From assembly GCF_015711645.1 (NCBI RefSeq), contig NZ_JABTEX010000004.1, forward strand, positions 248,001 through 312,000: a stretch of DNA of 64,000 bases. The letters are read 5' to 3'. The notes beneath the pieces were generated by a model. It worked only from the letters and a program-made list of their open reading frames with translations, had not been told where the DNA came from and made no database searches. This document shows positions 10,238 to 16,365 of the stretch, piece after piece (the first letter of the stretch is position 1; every line of letters starts with the position of its first letter). A program made the position numbers and the translations under genes. This stretch comes from Planomonospora sp. ID82291. GTDB taxonomy: Bacteria; Actinomycetota; Actinomycetes; Streptosporangiales; Streptosporangiaceae.

Positions 10238-11410
10238 TCAGGCGGCCGACGGCTCCAGGGCGCGCGCCTCGGAGGGGACGACGTCCTCGTAGACCCGGAC
10301 GAGTTCCTGGCTGATCCGCTCCCACGAGTAGCGGGAGCGGACGCGGTCGGCGCCGGCGAAGCCCAGAGCCGTCCGCCGGGTGGGGTCGGCGAGCAGTTCG
10401 CGGACGAGGCGGGCGGTCTGCGCGGGGCGGTCCGGGGCGACCAGCAGGCCGGTCACGCCGTCCACGACGGAGTCGGTGTGCGCGCCCACCGCGGAGGCGA
10501 CGACCGGCACGCCGCAGGCCATGGCCTCCAGCGCGACCACGCCCGCAGCGGTCTCGCGGGGCAGCGAGACGACCACGTCGGCGCTGCGCATCAGCTTGGG
10601 CACGGAGGCGTGCGCGACCTGCCCGAGCAGGGTGACCCGGTCCTCCACGCCGAGCTCCTTGGCCAGCATCATGACCCGGTGCGCGTCGGCGTCGTGCTCC
10701 AGGTCCGCGGCGGCCGGGCCGCCGGCGACGAGCAGCTCCGCGTCCGGGACGCCCTCCAGGGCCCGGACCGCGGTCAGCACGCCCTTGCCCTCGGAGAGCG
10801 GCCCCACGTGCAGCAGCCGGGACCGGGTGCCGCGCGGCGCGGCCGGCCCCTGGCGGCGGAACCGCTCGACGTCGATGCCGCAGGGCACCACGGCGATGTC
10901 GCGGCGCGGCACGCCCAGCCGGATCAGCTCCGACTCCTCGCCCCCGCACCCGGCGACCACCGCGCCGGCGCGGCGGGTGATCGCCCGCTGCAGCCGCGCC
11001 TTCCTGGGGTCGGCGCTCTCGCAGATGAACCCCTGCACGACCGGGACCGCCAGGCCGTCGGCGCCCGCGATGGCGGCCAGCCCGGCGGTCCAGGAGCAGG
11101 CGTGGACCACGTCCGGGCGGTCCTGGCTCCAGCGGCGGGTCAGCTCGGTGCCGAAGCCGGACAGGTGGCGCAGCACGTCGTCCTCGGACAGGTCCTCGGC
11201 GGGCCCGACGGCCAGGTGCTCCATGGTGACGCCGTGGGCCACGCGCACGCGGGCCTTGCCCGAGTCGGAGGCCCTGCGCGTGTAGACGGTGACCTTGTGC
11301 TCCTTGCCGAGCTCCCGGGCGATGGCGAGCATCTGGGTGCGCTGGGCGGAGAGGTCGGACCGGTCCTGGCCGTCGGACAGGGCGTCGGAGAAGACAAATG
11401 CAATATTCAC
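10238..11410 (-). CDS. Glycosyltransferase family 4 (GT-B fold)
   Basis: 390 residues. The N-terminus VNIAFVFSDALSDGQDRSDLS is the acceptor-side Rossmann start. The C-terminal donor domain has LLHVGPLSEGKGVL, LLGQVAHASVPKLMRSADVVV and the nucleotide-sugar motif ETAAGVVALEAMACGVPVVA, where the E-x7-E spacing is that of family 4. The sugar donor and acceptor are unknown. The GTG at 11408-11410 is preferred because GAGGTG lies just upstream and translation there starts directly at the beta-strand; a longer start at 11437 is possible. It stands alone, so a capsule or mycothiol-type pathway cannot be assigned from context. Confidence 0.87.
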   Translation of the reverse strand: MNIAFVFSDALSDGQDRSDLSAQRTQMLAIARELGKEHKVTVYTRRASDSGKARVRVAHGVTMEHLAVGPAEDLSEDDVLRHLSGFGTELTRRWSQDRPDVVHACSWTAGLAAIAGADGLAVPVVQGFICESADPRKARLQRAITRRAGAVVAGCGGEESELIRLGVPRRDIAVVPCGIDVERFRRQGPAAPRGTRSRLLHVGPLSEGKGVLTAVRALEGVPDAELLVAGGPAAADLEHDADAHRVMMLAKELGVEDRVTLLGQVAHASVPKLMRSADVVVSLPRETAAGVVALEAMACGVPVVASAVGAHTDSVVDGVTGLLVAPDRPAQTARLVRELLADPTRRTALGFAGADRVRSRYSWERISQELVRVYEDVVPSEARALEPSAA

Positions 11411-11554
11411 GGCACACCTCTGGGAGGAGACAGGCATGGAAAGCCAGGGATTCCTTCAGGGGTGCCTGCGTCTTAGGCACTCATCTGTATGAGAGAAACC
11501 ATACCCGGATCACGGTTGATGGCAAACCTCCGTATTCCCGGCGCCGTGCGGGCC

Positions 11555-13414
11555 CTACACCACCCGCAGCGCGAGGACCACGATCTCGTCCCAGACCCGC
11601 CCGCCGGAGAACGCGTGCCGGTCCTCCTCGACGGTCTTGACCACGGTGGCCGGAGACTGCGAGACGCACCGGGCCAGCACGTCGGCCAGCCGCATCTCGC
11701 CGTAGGCCTCGCCCTCGTCGTTGCGCGAGGCCACCAGGCCGTCGGAGTAGAAGACCAGCATCTGGCCGGCGGCCAGCGTGAGCTCCTCGTCGAACGTCTC
11801 GGCGTCGGGGGAGATGCCCAGCGGCACGCCGCCCCCGGCGGTGAAGCGCACCGTGCCGTCGGGCCGCAGCAGCGCGGCGGGATGGTGCCCCGCGCTGGCC
11901 AGCCTGATCCGCCGTCCCTTGACGAACCCGGCCAGCGCCATCACGAACATGCCGCTGTGCTGCGCGGCCAGCGCCTGGTTGAGCCTGCGCAGGGCCTGTC
12001 CGGGGTCGGACTCCCAGACGCTCAGCACGCGCAGCCCGTTGCGGACCAGGGCGCTGACCGAGGCGGCCTCCTCGCCCTTGCCCGCGGCCCCGCCGAGCGC
12101 GAAGCCCCAGCCGTCCGCGGAGGGGAAGACGTCGTAGAACTCGGCGCCCACCGGGCTGGAGCCCGCGTGGTAGATCGCCGCGGCCTCGAACCCGGGGATG
12201 TCGGGGAGGCTGCGCGGCACGACGCTGGTGCGCAGCGCGTCGGCGGCCTGCGACCGGTTCTGGAAGCTGCGCCGGGCCCGCACCGCGAGGCCGAGGTGCA
12301 CGCCGATCTCCTGCAGCACGCCCAGGTCGGCCAGGGAGAACGGCTCGCGGTCGCGCAGCCGTACCAGGGTGAGGGAGCCCGCCGGGCCGTCCTCGCCGCC
12401 GATCGGCACGCACAGCACCGAGGCGGCGCCCATCACCCGCAGCAGCGGCGGCCCGTCGCCGGCGGCCCCCAGGAGGCCCTCGTCCTCCACCATCTCGTGC
12501 ACCACGCCGGAACCGCCGGTCAGCACGTGCGCGATGAGCGGCGCCCGCAGGGGGTTGAGCCCCTCGACCAGGCGGACCAGGTCGGTCACCGGCCGGTCGG
12601 AGGGACCGAACACGCACGCCCGGCGGGGGGTGCCGTCGCGGACCACGTCGGCGATCACCCAGTCGGCGGCCTCGGCGGCCAGCAGCCGCGAGGCCCGGGT
12701 GACGGTCACCGGCTGGCGCAGGCTCTCCTCGTCCAGCAGCAGGCGGGTCATCCGGGACAGCAGCTCCTGGCGGCGCGCGGAGGCCAGGATGAGGGCGGCG
12801 TCCGACCGGTCCGCCGTCCCCGGCGGCGCCTCGGCGACCTGCGCCTCCAGCGGCAGGATCACCACCGCGGTCATCGCGTGCGGCTCGCCCGGCATCGTCA
12901 GCCGCACCAGGGCGAGCTGCACGGTGTGCGCGCGGCCCTGGTGCGCCAGCCGGGTCTGGAACGTCGCCGTCTGGCCGCTCTGCTGCACCGCGGTCAGGTG
13001 CGAGCGGAACGCCGCCCGCCGGGAGACGTCGACGAACAGCGGGAACGACCGGCCGATCAGGTAGCCGGCCGGGCTGCCCAGCATCCGGGAGGTCTCCGCG
13101 CTGATCCGCCGGACGACCCCCGAGCCGTCGAGCACCGCCACCGGCACCGGGAACGTCTTGAACACCTGGCGCAGCAGCTTGAGCTCCCGCTGCGCGCCGT
13201 TCTCCCGCTCGCCGGACCGCCGCGGGGTCCTGCGCAGTTCGCGCAGGGCGGCGTCCAGCAGCTCACGGGCGGTGTCCAGCTCGGCGAGCGCGGCATCGAG
13301 TGTGGAACGGGGGTCCGCGGGGTAGCTGGACCTGGCCTCACGCAGGGACAGGACTCTGGCGGTCAACGCGTCGAGCGCCTGCTCCAGGGCGGGAAGGCCA
13401 ACGGGTTCGGTCAA
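11555..13414 (-). CDS. PAS-GAF-SpoIIE/PP2C protein with altered metal-binding residues
   Basis: About 619 residues: an N-terminal coiled-coil region, a PAS domain (LLRQVFKTFPVPVAVLDGSGV), a GAF domain (about 230-400), and a C-terminal SpoIIE/RsbU-type PPM domain. Such phosphatases dephosphorylate STAS anti-anti-sigma proteins to release sigma factors. Here two normally invariant Asp motifs are changed: GGDxYD reads GAEFYD, and GDVxGKG reads GGAAGKG, although YSDGLVASRN is intact. Phosphatase activity may therefore be lost or reduced. The TTG at 13412-13414 begins LTEPVGLPALEQALD; a longer GTG start is possible. A STAS protein and a sigma factor follow within 1.5 kb, which supports a partner-switching role. 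Confidence 0.88.
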   Translation of the reverse strand: MTEPVGLPALEQALDALTARVLSLREARSSYPADPRSTLDAALAELDTARELLDAALRELRRTPRRSGERENGAQRELKLLRQVFKTFPVPVAVLDGSGVVRRISAETSRMLGSPAGYLIGRSFPLFVDVSRRAAFRSHLTAVQQSGQTATFQTRLAHQGRAHTVQLALVRLTMPGEPHAMTAVVILPLEAQVAEAPPGTADRSDAALILASARRQELLSRMTRLLLDEESLRQPVTVTRASRLLAAEAADWVIADVVRDGTPRRACVFGPSDRPVTDLVRLVEGLNPLRAPLIAHVLTGGSGVVHEMVEDEGLLGAAGDGPPLLRVMGAASVLCVPIGGEDGPAGSLTLVRLRDREPFSLADLGVLQEIGVHLGLAVRARRSFQNRSQAADALRTSVVPRSLPDIPGFEAAAIYHAGSSPVGAEFYDVFPSADGWGFALGGAAGKGEEAASVSALVRNGLRVLSVWESDPGQALRRLNQALAAQHSGMFVMALAGFVKGRRIRLASAGHHPAALLRPDGTVRFTAGGGVPLGISPDAETFDEELTLAAGQMLVFYSDGLVASRNDEGEAYGEMRLADVLARCVSQSPATVVKTVEEDRHAFSGGRVWDEIVVLALRVV

Positions 13415-13539
13415 TGCTCGTCCTCGTCCAGGGCCGGTGCGGGGTGTCCTGCCGTAGACGGTACGCCACCCCGCGGGTCTCATCGATGCACGGTCAGGTA
13501 GTGGTTAAGGTATCGAAATTCCGGAAGGGGCCTCATCCC

Positions 13540-14274
13540 ATGGACATGATGACTCCCGTTCTCGCCCGGGATCTCGCGGCCCTCGGCAGGGTGAGCGAGG
13601 AGACCTCCAGCGAGAGCGTGCTGCGCGGGCTCACCGCCACCCTCGCCGGTGGCGTGCCCGGCTGTGCGGGCGGGTCCGCCGAGCTGTGGCGGGAGGAGCG
13701 GCTGGTGGTCTCCGCCTCGCACAGCGAGCTCGTCGTGCTCGTCGACAGCGAGAGCGGGCTGGGCCGGGGACCCTGCGCGCAGGCGCGCTCCACCGGCCGC
13801 CACGTGATCGTGCAGGACGTCCTGCGTGAGACCCGCTGGCCCGACTACACGGCGATGGCGGTCCGCAGCGGGGTCCGCTCGGTCCTGGCGATGCCGATCA
13901 CCGTCGAGCGCGCGATCCTGGTCCTCGGCCTGTACGGCGTGCGCCCCGGTGTCTTCGCCACCCGCAACGTGACCCCGCTGGCCGAGATGCTGGCCGAGCA
14001 GGTGACCGTGGCCCTGGCCAACATGTGGGACTACGACGAGGTCCGGACCGACGCGGCGCAGATGCAGGAGGCGCTGGCCGGACGCGCCGTCATCGACCAG
14101 GCCAAGGGCATCATCATGAAGTCCAGCGGCTGCTCGGCCGAGGAGGCCTTCGACGAGCTGCGCCGGGTCTCCCAGCACCACCAGGTGAAGGTCGCCGATC
14201 TGGCCAGGCTCCTGGTCGACGAGCACCAGCGCAACCGGGGCGGCCGGCCGGTCCGGCCGGACCAGGTGCTGTAG
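13540..14274 (+). CDS. GAF and ANTAR domain transcription antitermination regulator
   Basis: 244 residues. The N-terminal two thirds is a GAF sensor (LWREERLVVSASHSELVVLV ... VLAMPITVERAILVLGLYG). The C-terminus is an ANTAR RNA-binding three-helix domain (ALAGRAVIDQAKGIIMKSS GCSAEEAFDELRRVSQ read across the helices). ANTAR proteins bind paired hexaloop hairpins in mRNA leaders to prevent termination. A GAF-ANTAR fusion is common in actinobacteria and often lies near SpoIIE-type phosphatases, as here (divergent neighbour, 125 bp). The ATG at 13540 follows GGAAGGGG. The ligand and RNA target are unknown. Confidence 0.9.
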   Translation: MDMMTPVLARDLAALGRVSEETSSESVLRGLTATLAGGVPGCAGGSAELWREERLVVSASHSELVVLVDSESGLGRGPCAQARSTGRHVIVQDVLRETRWPDYTAMAVRSGVRSVLAMPITVERAILVLGLYGVRPGVFATRNVTPLAEMLAEQVTVALANMWDYDEVRTDAAQMQEALAGRAVIDQAKGIIMKSSGCSAEEAFDELRRVSQHHQVKVADLARLLVDEHQRNRGGRPVRPDQVL

Positions 14275-14377: not shown

Positions 14378-14776
14378 TCAGGACCGGCCGAACGCCGCCA
14401 GCGCGTCGTCGAGCGTGTCGTAGAGCGGCAGCCGCTGGGCCAGGCCGGTGATCCACATCACCTTGGTCTTGGCGTACTCCACCCCGATGAGGGCGAACCG
14501 CCCGCCGGCCTGGGTGCTGACCTGCCACTGGTGCACGATGAGACCGAGCGCCCGCGAGTCCATGAAGGTGACGCCGCCGAGGTCCAGGACCATGTCGGTG
14601 CCGTGCTCGGCGGCCTCCGCGGCGAGGTAGTCGGCGAACTGGTCCCTGGTGGTGGCGTCGAGCAGGCCCGTCACCCGGATCACGTTCACTCCGTCCACGG
14701 TCGCCGACGCCAGGGCCAGGGCTGATCCACCACCGTTGTTCGACACCGTCACCCAGATCCTCCTCGCGATTCGCAT
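14378..14776 (-). CDS. STAS-domain anti-sigma factor antagonist
   Basis: 132 residues. A single STAS fold with the phosphorylatable Ser in LDLGGVTFMDSRALGLIV, like SpoIIAA/RsbV. When unphosphorylated, such proteins bind the anti-sigma kinase and free the sigma factor. It is divergent from the sigma factor gene (171-bp gap containing a perfect palindrome) and convergent with the GAF-ANTAR gene. The ATG at 14774-14776 (MRIARRIWVTVSNN) has AAGG 6 nt upstream. The likely kinase partner is the RsbW-like ATPase at 15844, and the likely phosphatase is the SpoIIE-type protein, if it is active. Confidence 0.88.
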   Translation of the reverse strand: MRIARRIWVTVSNNGGGSALALASATVDGVNVIRVTGLLDATTRDQFADYLAAEAAEHGTDMVLDLGGVTFMDSRALGLIVHQWQVSTQAGGRFALIGVEYAKTKVMWITGLAQRLPLYDTLDDALAAFGRS

Positions 14777-14946: not shown

Positions 14947-15723
14947 ATGTCTGTTCAGGCACTCGAACTCAACGACATGACCGCCGAGGACCTCCTGGCG
15001 GAGATGGTCTCGCCTGAAATCTCTGAATACCGCGCCGAGCGGCTGCGTGAGCGCATCGTCGAGATGCACCGCCCGCTGGCGATGGAGATCGCCCGCCGCT
15101 ACCGCTACCGGGGCGAGCCCCTGGAGGACCTCCTCCAGGCCGCCTACGTCGGCCTGATGAAGGCGATCAACGGCTTCGACCCGACCCTCGGCCACCCCTT
15201 CCGGGGATACGCCGTCGTCACCATGACCGGCGAGGTCAAGCGGCACTTCCGCGACCGCACCTGGGCCATCCGCGTGCCCCGCGTCTACCAGGAGCGGCGG
15301 GCGGAGCTGAACCGCCTGGTCGCCGACCTGAGCCAGGAGTTCGGCCGCGCCCCGACCGTCGCCGAGCTCGCCGAGAAGATGAAGATCAGCGAAGAGGACG
15401 TGCTGCTCACCCTCGACGCCTCCGCCGCCTACAGCGCGCTCTCCCTCGACGCGCCGCTCGGCGCCGACGACGACGCGGCCGCCCTGGGCGACGTCATCCC
15501 CGACGAGGACGACGCGCTGTCGGTGCTGGTGGACCGGGAGGCGGTCAAGCCTTTGATCGACAAGCTGCCGCCGCGGGAGAAGAACATCCTGCTCCTGCGC
15601 TTCTTCGGGAACCTGACCCAGGCGGAGATCGCGGCGGAGTTCGGCATCTCCCAGATGCACGTCTCCCGGATTCTGCGTAAGGTGCTGGACCAGTTGCGCG
15701 CAGAACTTCTCGCCGAGGCCTGA
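14947..15723 (+). CDS. SigB/SigF/SigG-family RNA polymerase sigma factor
   Basis: 258 residues, the normal length for SigB/SigF-class alternative factors. Region 2 is EPLEDLLQAAYVGLMKAING...HPFRGYAVVTMTGEVKRHFRDRTW; region 3 is VPRVYQERRAELNRLV...PTVAELAEKM; region 4 is LPPREKNILLLRFFGNLTQAEIA with the HTH EFGISQMHVSRILRKVL. There is no region 1. GGAG lies 7 nt before the ATG. This class recognises promoters of GNNT-N14-16-GGGTAY type and directs stress or developmental genes; katE at 59554 has such a site. The RsbW-like gene downstream, on the same strand, is the candidate anti-sigma factor. Confidence 0.95.
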   Translation: MSVQALELNDMTAEDLLAEMVSPEISEYRAERLRERIVEMHRPLAMEIARRYRYRGEPLEDLLQAAYVGLMKAINGFDPTLGHPFRGYAVVTMTGEVKRHFRDRTWAIRVPRVYQERRAELNRLVADLSQEFGRAPTVAELAEKMKISEEDVLLTLDASAAYSALSLDAPLGADDDAAALGDVIPDEDDALSVLVDREAVKPLIDKLPPREKNILLLRFFGNLTQAEIAAEFGISQMHVSRILRKVLDQLRAELLAEA

Positions 15724-15843
15724 ATACGACCCTGGTTGCGGGGCAGCTTCAGTCGGCGGGAGCCTAGGTGTCGTAGAGTGCGTTCCGATGAGCCCCGGGC
15801 GCTCAGGGTGCAGGTGCCACGGGGCGGGGGAGGCGGTTCACGA

Positions 15844-16365
15844 GTGAACGAGGACGGTGCTCGTCCGGCCCGCTTTCAGGCGGCCGACGGCCGGCTTCGG
15901 CCTTCCTTCGAGGGCGCGCCGTCCTCCGGTGAGACGACCTCCCCGGACGGGGCACCTCCCGCCGGGGGCGGCTCCGCGCGGATGGCCCAGGCCGAACTGG
16001 CCTTCTGCCTGCCGGACCTGCCGGAGGTGCGCGAGTTCGCCACCGTGCACGCCCTGCGCAGCGGGATGGCGCAGGAACGCCTGCCCGACTTCCTGGTCGC
16101 GGTGAACGAGGTCGCCACCAACGCCGTCACCCACGGGCACGCCAGCGCCAAGGCGCTGCTGCGGATGTGGGCCGAGGACGGGACCCTCGTCGTGGAGGTC
16201 CGCGACGAGGGCCGGTGGGTCCCCGAGACGACTCCCGGGACCGTCCCTCCCGGTCCCTACGCCACCAGCGGCATGGGGCTGTGGGTGGCCCGGATGGTCA
16301 GCTCCGCCATCGACTTCCGGACCGGACCGGGAGGAACGGCCGTCACGATGTCCTTCACGATCTGA
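15844..16365 (+). CDS. RsbW/SpoIIAB-like ATP-binding anti-sigma factor (serine kinase)
   Basis: 173 residues, GTG start after a GGGGGAGG. About 45 disordered residues are followed by a GHKL ATPase domain: N-box FLVAVNEVATNAVTHGHA, G1 box VEVRDEGRW, G2 box ATSGMGLWVARMV. RsbW-type proteins sequester SigB/SigF factors and phosphorylate STAS antagonists. Its position 120 bp downstream of the sigma factor makes it the natural candidate for binding it, although the class is numerous in actinomycetes and cognate pairing cannot be proved from sequence. It lies 27 bp before ndh. Confidence 0.88.
   Translation: MNEDGARPARFQAADGRLRPSFEGAPSSGETTSPDGAPPAGGGSARMAQAELAFCLPDLPEVREFATVHALRSGMAQERLPDFLVAVNEVATNAVTHGHASAKALLRMWAEDGTLVVEVRDEGRWVPETTPGTVPPGPYATSGMGLWVARMVSSAIDFRTGPGGTAVTMSFTI

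Follow-up and report, generated by a model that had tools for sequence, protein, structure and literature searches.

The window analysed here, a stretch of 64,000 nucleotides from Planomonospora sp. ID82291 (genome of 7.58 Mb in 15 contigs), encompasses a minus-strand gene for a protein with PAS and GAF sensor domains and a C-terminal SpoIIE/PP2C domain in which two metal-binding aspartates are replaced, close to genes for a STAS protein, a sigma factor and a HATPase. The relevant features are listed below; residue numbers, here and throughout, are counted from the upstream ATG of the 11555-13483 open reading frame.

10238..11437, minus strand: GT4-type glycosyltransferase (Pfam), a conserved neighbour on the same strand, 117 bp downstream of the PAS-GAF-SpoIIE gene
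11555..13414, minus strand: gene for the PAS-GAF-SpoIIE (degenerate) protein, 619 codons from a TTG (domains from Pfam)
11558..12268, minus strand: degenerate SpoIIE/PP2C domain with linker helix, residues 406-642 (Pfam, AlphaFold2, VIA-align)
11588..11590, minus strand: Asp632 of WDE, kept; Asp in 124/124 readable clade loci
11741..11743, minus strand: Asp581 of YSDG, kept in the window protein; among 125 clade loci, Asp in 86, Glu in 38, one unreadable
12089..12091, minus strand: Gly465 (GGG), replacing the Asp of GDV; among 125 clade loci, Gly in 93, Ser in 31, one unreadable
12140..12142, minus strand: Glu448 (GAG), replacing the Asp of GGD; Glu in 125/125 clade loci, Asp in 20/20 other relatives
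12281..12535, minus strand: GAF domain, residues 317-401 (Pfam GAF)
12869..13174, minus strand: PAS domain, residues 104-205 (Pfam PAS 104-200, PAS_4 109-205)
13393..14274, plus strand: divergent GAF-ANTAR regulator (Pfam ANTAR 71 bits, GAF_2 44 bits), true start probably further in
14378..14776, minus strand (reading frame to 14962; start uncertain): STAS anti-anti-sigma protein with the motif MDSRALGL (Pfam STAS)
14947..15723, plus strand: SigB/SigF-type sigma factor (Pfam sigma70 regions 2, 3 and 4; type inferred from the locus)
15736..16365, plus strand: RsbW-like HATPase_c_2 anti-sigma factor/kinase (Pfam; ATP-binding boxes in the alignment)

The reading frame that begins with the first ATG spans 11555-13483 on the minus strand (642 codons). 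Its codon 24 is the TTG at 13414, which is the better 5' end because a GAGGA-like stretch precedes it and stop codons occur just upstream of this point in several relatives; the 5' end originally assigned to the gene is thereby borne out. The closest named match to the protein comes from Planomonospora parontospora (96% identity over the protein).

The C-terminal domain belongs to the SpoIIE family (PF07228), with a Pfam match over residues 457-641 that scores 121.5 bits against a gathering score of 25, and has the PP2C fold. Both sensors, which the original prediction had listed as kept, were found by Pfam. That prediction also read the GGDxYD motif as GAEFYD (residues 446-451) and the GDVxGKG motif as GGAAGKG (residues 464-470), and both readings were verified at the codon level, as were Asp581 and Asp632. 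The further claim that YSDG and WDE remain stands for these two aspartates, of which Asp632 is presumed to be a metal ligand, but not for the Glu of WDE, which itself stands where the usual DD has its second Asp. Thus, among the residues that mark an active RsbU/SpoIIE-type enzyme, the Asp of GGD and the Asp of GDV are missing, and the Asp of (Y/T)SDG and the first Asp of DD are present. Beyond the positions noted originally, residues 447, 482, 512, 515, 534, 574 and 633 are also altered relative to a residue shared by 18 or more of the 19 canonical relatives, and the clade of orthologs as a whole departs from residues present in at least 90% of the canonical relatives at positions 447, 448, 465, 466, 475, 482, 512, 515, 534, 558, 574 and 633, and also at 421. 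These changes affect the active site collectively, and the replaced residues are themselves fixed.

We take Glu448, Gly465, Asp581 and Asp632 to be the motif-level equivalents of, respectively, Asp610, Asp628, Asp746 and Asp795 of Bacillus subtilis SpoIIE. This mapping is by motif, as the structural aligner returned ranges only; the residue alignment to Rv1364c is consistent with it, placing Glu448 opposite the Asp of GGD and Gly465 opposite the Asp of GDV. In the portion of the SpoIIE structural report used here (PMC3517971), the crystal showed one Mn only; Asp628, Asp746 and Asp795 coordinate Mn1, and Asp628, Gly629 and Asp610 a putative Mn2. The Asp-to-Glu change at 448 is conservative and mild. 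The Asp-to-Gly change at 465 is severe and is the disabling one, because the matching Asp628 is a ligand of both Mn1 and the putative Mn2, so that Gly or Ser at this position removes the sole side chain common to the two metal sites.

Orthologs of the protein (at least about 59% identity) were detected in 120 of the 297 Streptosporangiaceae genomes sampled, a count made by hand from the match table. All 120 have Glu448, and Gly or Ser occupies position 465 in 119/119 readable cases. In the final set of 125 clade loci, comprising these 120 and the named records, Glu448 is universal, and Gly or Ser is found at 465 in all 124 readable loci, the remaining one (in genome G217) being cut by a contig end; such consistency exceeds chance. 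The set leaves out three named loci already represented among the sampled contigs (L064-L066) and a repeat copy in genome G268, and at least two of its members (L061 and L063) probably represent the same genomes as sampled ones; the divergent L093 locus and the domain-less forms described below stand outside the count. In 38 of the 124 readable loci another ligand is affected as well, Asp581 being replaced with Glu, and Asp581 is lost in many Nonomuraea-type proteins.

The 20 nearest relatives outside the clade all have Asp at 448, and 19 of the 20 have Asp at 465. The exception, L093:9037-10953 (genome G084; about 47% identical), retains an intact GGD and has Asn465, His581 and Glu632; this sister ortholog has degenerated by another route, with three of the four ligand positions changed. 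The 13 other SpoIIE-family matches in the window genome have Asp at both positions in every case, with three (L135, L137 and L142) read by eye. One of these, L135 (G000:C10:342500-345000), has YTNG in place of YTDG and is possibly a second, partly degenerate member of the family. The homolog alignment that had been proposed as a check, and that would have refuted the original prediction by revealing normal Asp in the homologs, therefore favours it: the substitutions are conserved in orthologs, and remoter canonical relatives align cleanly with Asp. An alignment artefact was ruled out, given that the motifs line up beside those of canonical relatives and were unchanged at 149 rows, and the 120 sampled genomes rule out a sequencing error or a single-strain oddity.

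The isolated domain was modelled by AlphaFold2 with a mean pLDDT of 84.9; the full-length model (mean pLDDT 61) is of low quality beyond the C-terminal domain, and the argument uses the domain model only. In VIA-align comparisons, the best match of this model was Rv1364c (3ke6; Z 26.0, 2.3 A, 212 residues), along with 3pu9 (26.0), SiaA (25.3), SpoIIE 5ucg (24.2) and Pseudomonas aeruginosa RssB (3f79 and 3eq2; 21.6 and 21.2, respectively). The PP2C fold is thus predicted to be intact.

The domain is under purifying selection. Among 275 pairs drawn from 24 close loci, the median dN/dS was 0.197 for the SpoIIE-like domain, 0.17 for PAS, 0.174 for the coil and 0.385 for GAF. Dividing domain distance by sensor distance gives 0.79 for the clade (2897 pairs) and 0.74 for 19 canonical relatives (171 pairs), which indicates that the domain is not decaying. 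Many of its residues are invariant in the clade, and its frame is open in all 120 sampled genomes with one exception, which a contig end truncates. Constraint was not detectably shifted to a new surface: no domain segment reached p < 0.05, and the lowest value, 0.07, belonged to a segment less conserved than expected. Segment means had suggested a new binding surface at the C-terminal helices, residues 595-626, a candidate that the significance test did not support.

The genes around the degenerate protein form a partner-switching module, with a STAS protein that contains a phosphorylatable serine, a HATPase anti-sigma factor and a sigma factor at the same locus. The GAF-ANTAR, STAS, SigB/SigF-type sigma, HATPase and GT4 genes occur together in 10/10 sampled relatives and in 8/8 named records, a tally in which the locus of the window itself is not counted and some entries are one genome under two names; PucR is present in 10/10 and NDH-2 in 7/10 of the sampled-relative neighbourhoods. 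The serine of the STAS motif MDSRALGL is intact in the window and invariant in 11/11 aligned proteins, and the ATP-binding boxes of the HATPase look intact by eye. In one genome (G021), a second HATPase-like gene, L044:12183-12509, lies between the degenerate SpoIIE gene and the GT4 gene. The ANTAR gene also adjoins most canonical relatives, where it is the commonest neighbour, which implies that the locus as a whole is old. Indeed, this GAF-ANTAR protein, of the RNA-binding type, is the most constant neighbour of the canonical, degenerate and domain-less forms.

The domain-less forms are PAS-GAF proteins that end after the GAF domain and are encoded beside GAF-ANTAR and STAS genes, with MEDS-HATPase where seen (L052-L056, L197-L226). 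A query with such a protein yielded matches of 62-100% in 69 of 295 genomes (hand count). Among these 69, 30 loci were opened, and in every one the protein stops no more than about a dozen residues past GAF, with no SpoIIE domain in the 1.5 kb flank. The ANTAR gene is adjacent in all 30 and the STAS gene in 27 of them, and the STAS serine is kept in 6/6 proteins read from such loci. Joint loss of the STAS gene and the SpoIIE domain was considered and proved wrong, as the STAS protein of the canonical locus L049, used as a query, finds STAS in domain-less loci. Neither the match list for the window protein nor that for the domain-less query contains a genome with both a clade protein and a domain-less protein of the L049 group.

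In a tree built on the PAS-GAF part, that is, outside the SpoIIE domain (55 rows, including 28 of the then 78 clade loci), all 28 clade rows fall on one branch (100/100). L093 forms a sister pair (98/86) with L057, a protein without a SpoIIE domain, and six other domain-less proteins group with canonical L049 (99/95). Given this placement of the clade, of L093 and L057, and of the domain-less proteins of the L049 group, and provided that the canonical state is the ancestral one, catalysis appears to have been lost on two or more occasions. The sequences likewise suggest that the SpoIIE domain is dispensable in a related lineage.

Taken together, fixation of the substitutions across orthologs makes it very likely that the SpoIIE domain of the window protein has lost catalysis, in good agreement with the non-catalytic role originally proposed. 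As in other PP2C pseudophosphatases, the predicted fold is kept, a metal ligand is lost, and the loss is conserved. A role as a switch that binds the STAS protein or the sigma factor, as also proposed originally, is plausible by analogy, in light of the 18/18 conserved neighbourhoods and the RssB precedent. We consider it somewhat probable that the protein is a pseudophosphatase serving as a signal-gated binding module within the STAS/HATPase/sigma partner switch.

Under this model, the PAS and GAF domains would act as sensors, and the linker helix would relay their signal to the PP2C-fold domain; in RsbU, according to the part of PMC12143880 consulted, linkers of this type transmit the signal to the PP2C switch helices. 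Lacking the catalytic metal pair, the domain would not hydrolyse phosphoserine, and may be kept as a signal-gated binding surface in the adjoining partner switch, which fits the proposal of Bradshaw et al. that, in RssB, the switch can control binding rather than catalysis (the relevant portion of PMC5468089). Most likely, it would hold or release the STAS protein, phosphorylated or not, and so set the amount of free STAS that titrates the HATPase off the sigma factor; alternatively, its partner might be the sigma factor, as for RssB. The model is weakest on what becomes of phosphorylated STAS: the STAS serine and the kinase boxes persist, so the system presumably continues to require some phosphatase, and none was traced to this locus. 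A different SpoIIE-family protein encoded in the genome could remove the phosphate, if it is removed at all, or else the phosphate might leave STAS slowly or never.

The main rival to this reading, because a related lineage does without the domain, is a structural-only role, in which the PP2C-fold domain would be a dimerising or otherwise structural remnant and the PAS-GAF half would perform the conserved job, perhaps with the adjacent GAF-ANTAR protein. The wide occurrence of PAS-GAF-only forms, all 30 of them devoid of the domain and next to an ANTAR gene where opened, and the prevalence of that neighbour among canonical relatives fit such a role. The constraint on the clade's domain, as strong as in canonical relatives, its low dN/dS and its many invariant residues argue against it, and we regard it as unlikely. 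An even less probable alternative, that the domain is a decaying, functionless relic, could draw on its absence from the related lineage and from L057, but is so poorly compatible with the dN/dS of 0.197, the open frames and the fixation of the replaced residues that we give it almost no credence.

Other points also count against our model: the test for a constraint shift to a new surface was negative, the domain seems dispensable in a related lineage, PP2C enzymes differ in metal number, and a single metal might yet be bound by Glu448, Asp581 and Asp632. The protein might then still be a phosphatase with an altered metal site, formed by these residues and perhaps occupied by a single metal. 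Such activity would accord with the conservative nature of Glu448, the retention of two of the four ligands in the window protein, the intact STAS serine and kinase boxes, and the one Mn seen in the SpoIIE crystal, in the part of PMC3517971 cited above. However, that single Mn is bound by three ligands and the missing one is among them, nearly a third of the clade loci (38/124) have another ligand altered, and three of the four are changed in the sister ortholog L093, making this explanation improbable.

Extending the binding-module reading across the relatives, we suggest, as a rather doubtful conjecture, that a family of partner switches has parted with its own phosphatase at least twice, in one case by freezing the enzyme as a non-catalytic, signal-gated adaptor that captures STAS (or sigma) stoichiometrically and in the other by loss of the domain, with PAS-GAF left beside the same STAS and ANTAR partners. 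Partner switching is usually pictured as a kinase working in a cycle with a single dedicated phosphatase, and a sensor of this kind would be expected to activate a stress regulator by dephosphorylation. In this large group of genomes, the locus, a phosphorylatable STAS and a kinase-like HATPase are retained, but the dedicated phosphatase looks dead, and in a related lineage the dedicated phosphatase domain is gone. If our reading is true, either the sensor has to work through binding or different pathways have phosphate removal in common. The canonical form (L049), the degenerate window clade, the differently altered L093 and the L052 group, in which the domain is deleted, all persist in related genomes and make up a natural series. 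This series offers a way to test in bacteria whether a regulatory switch can persist after catalysis has gone, as has been proposed, and the pseudoenzyme-intermediate idea of Bradshaw et al. would become directly testable there.

We found no published SpoIIE-type pseudophosphatase of Actinomycetota in the open-licence PMC literature; the actinobacterial variant is new, and a PP2C pseudophosphatase in sigma control is already known. The RsbU, RsbP and SpoIIE phosphatases share with the window protein the PF07228 domain, the sensor-linker-PP2C layout and a locus with STAS, HATPase and sigma genes, but in the window protein two ligand aspartates are replaced and fixed, and it is presumed inactive. 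Rv1364c of Mycobacterium tuberculosis, the best structural match, presumably has a comparable sensor-phosphatase-kinase chain; unlike the window protein, it keeps the canonical GGD, GDV and YTDG motifs in the alignment. The animal PP2C pseudophosphatases PHLPP2 and TAB1, in the portions of the accounts used here, resemble the window protein in having lost metal ligands long ago while retaining the fold, but are eukaryotic and have other partners. RssB resembles it in having a PP2C-fold output under a sensory domain and in controlling sigma availability by binding; in Escherichia coli, its PP2C fold is devoid of the active-site residues and it functions as an adaptor for sigma-S (PMC7226468 and PMC5468089, in the parts drawn upon). 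Nevertheless, RssB has a receiver domain, of which the Pfam scan of the window protein found none, placing the latter outside RssB, and delivers sigma-S to ClpXP, whereas the window protein combines PAS and GAF with a STAS/HATPase/sigma locus in Actinomycetota and shows no sign of a protease link. The losses of the active site in RssB and in the window clade are taken to be separate.
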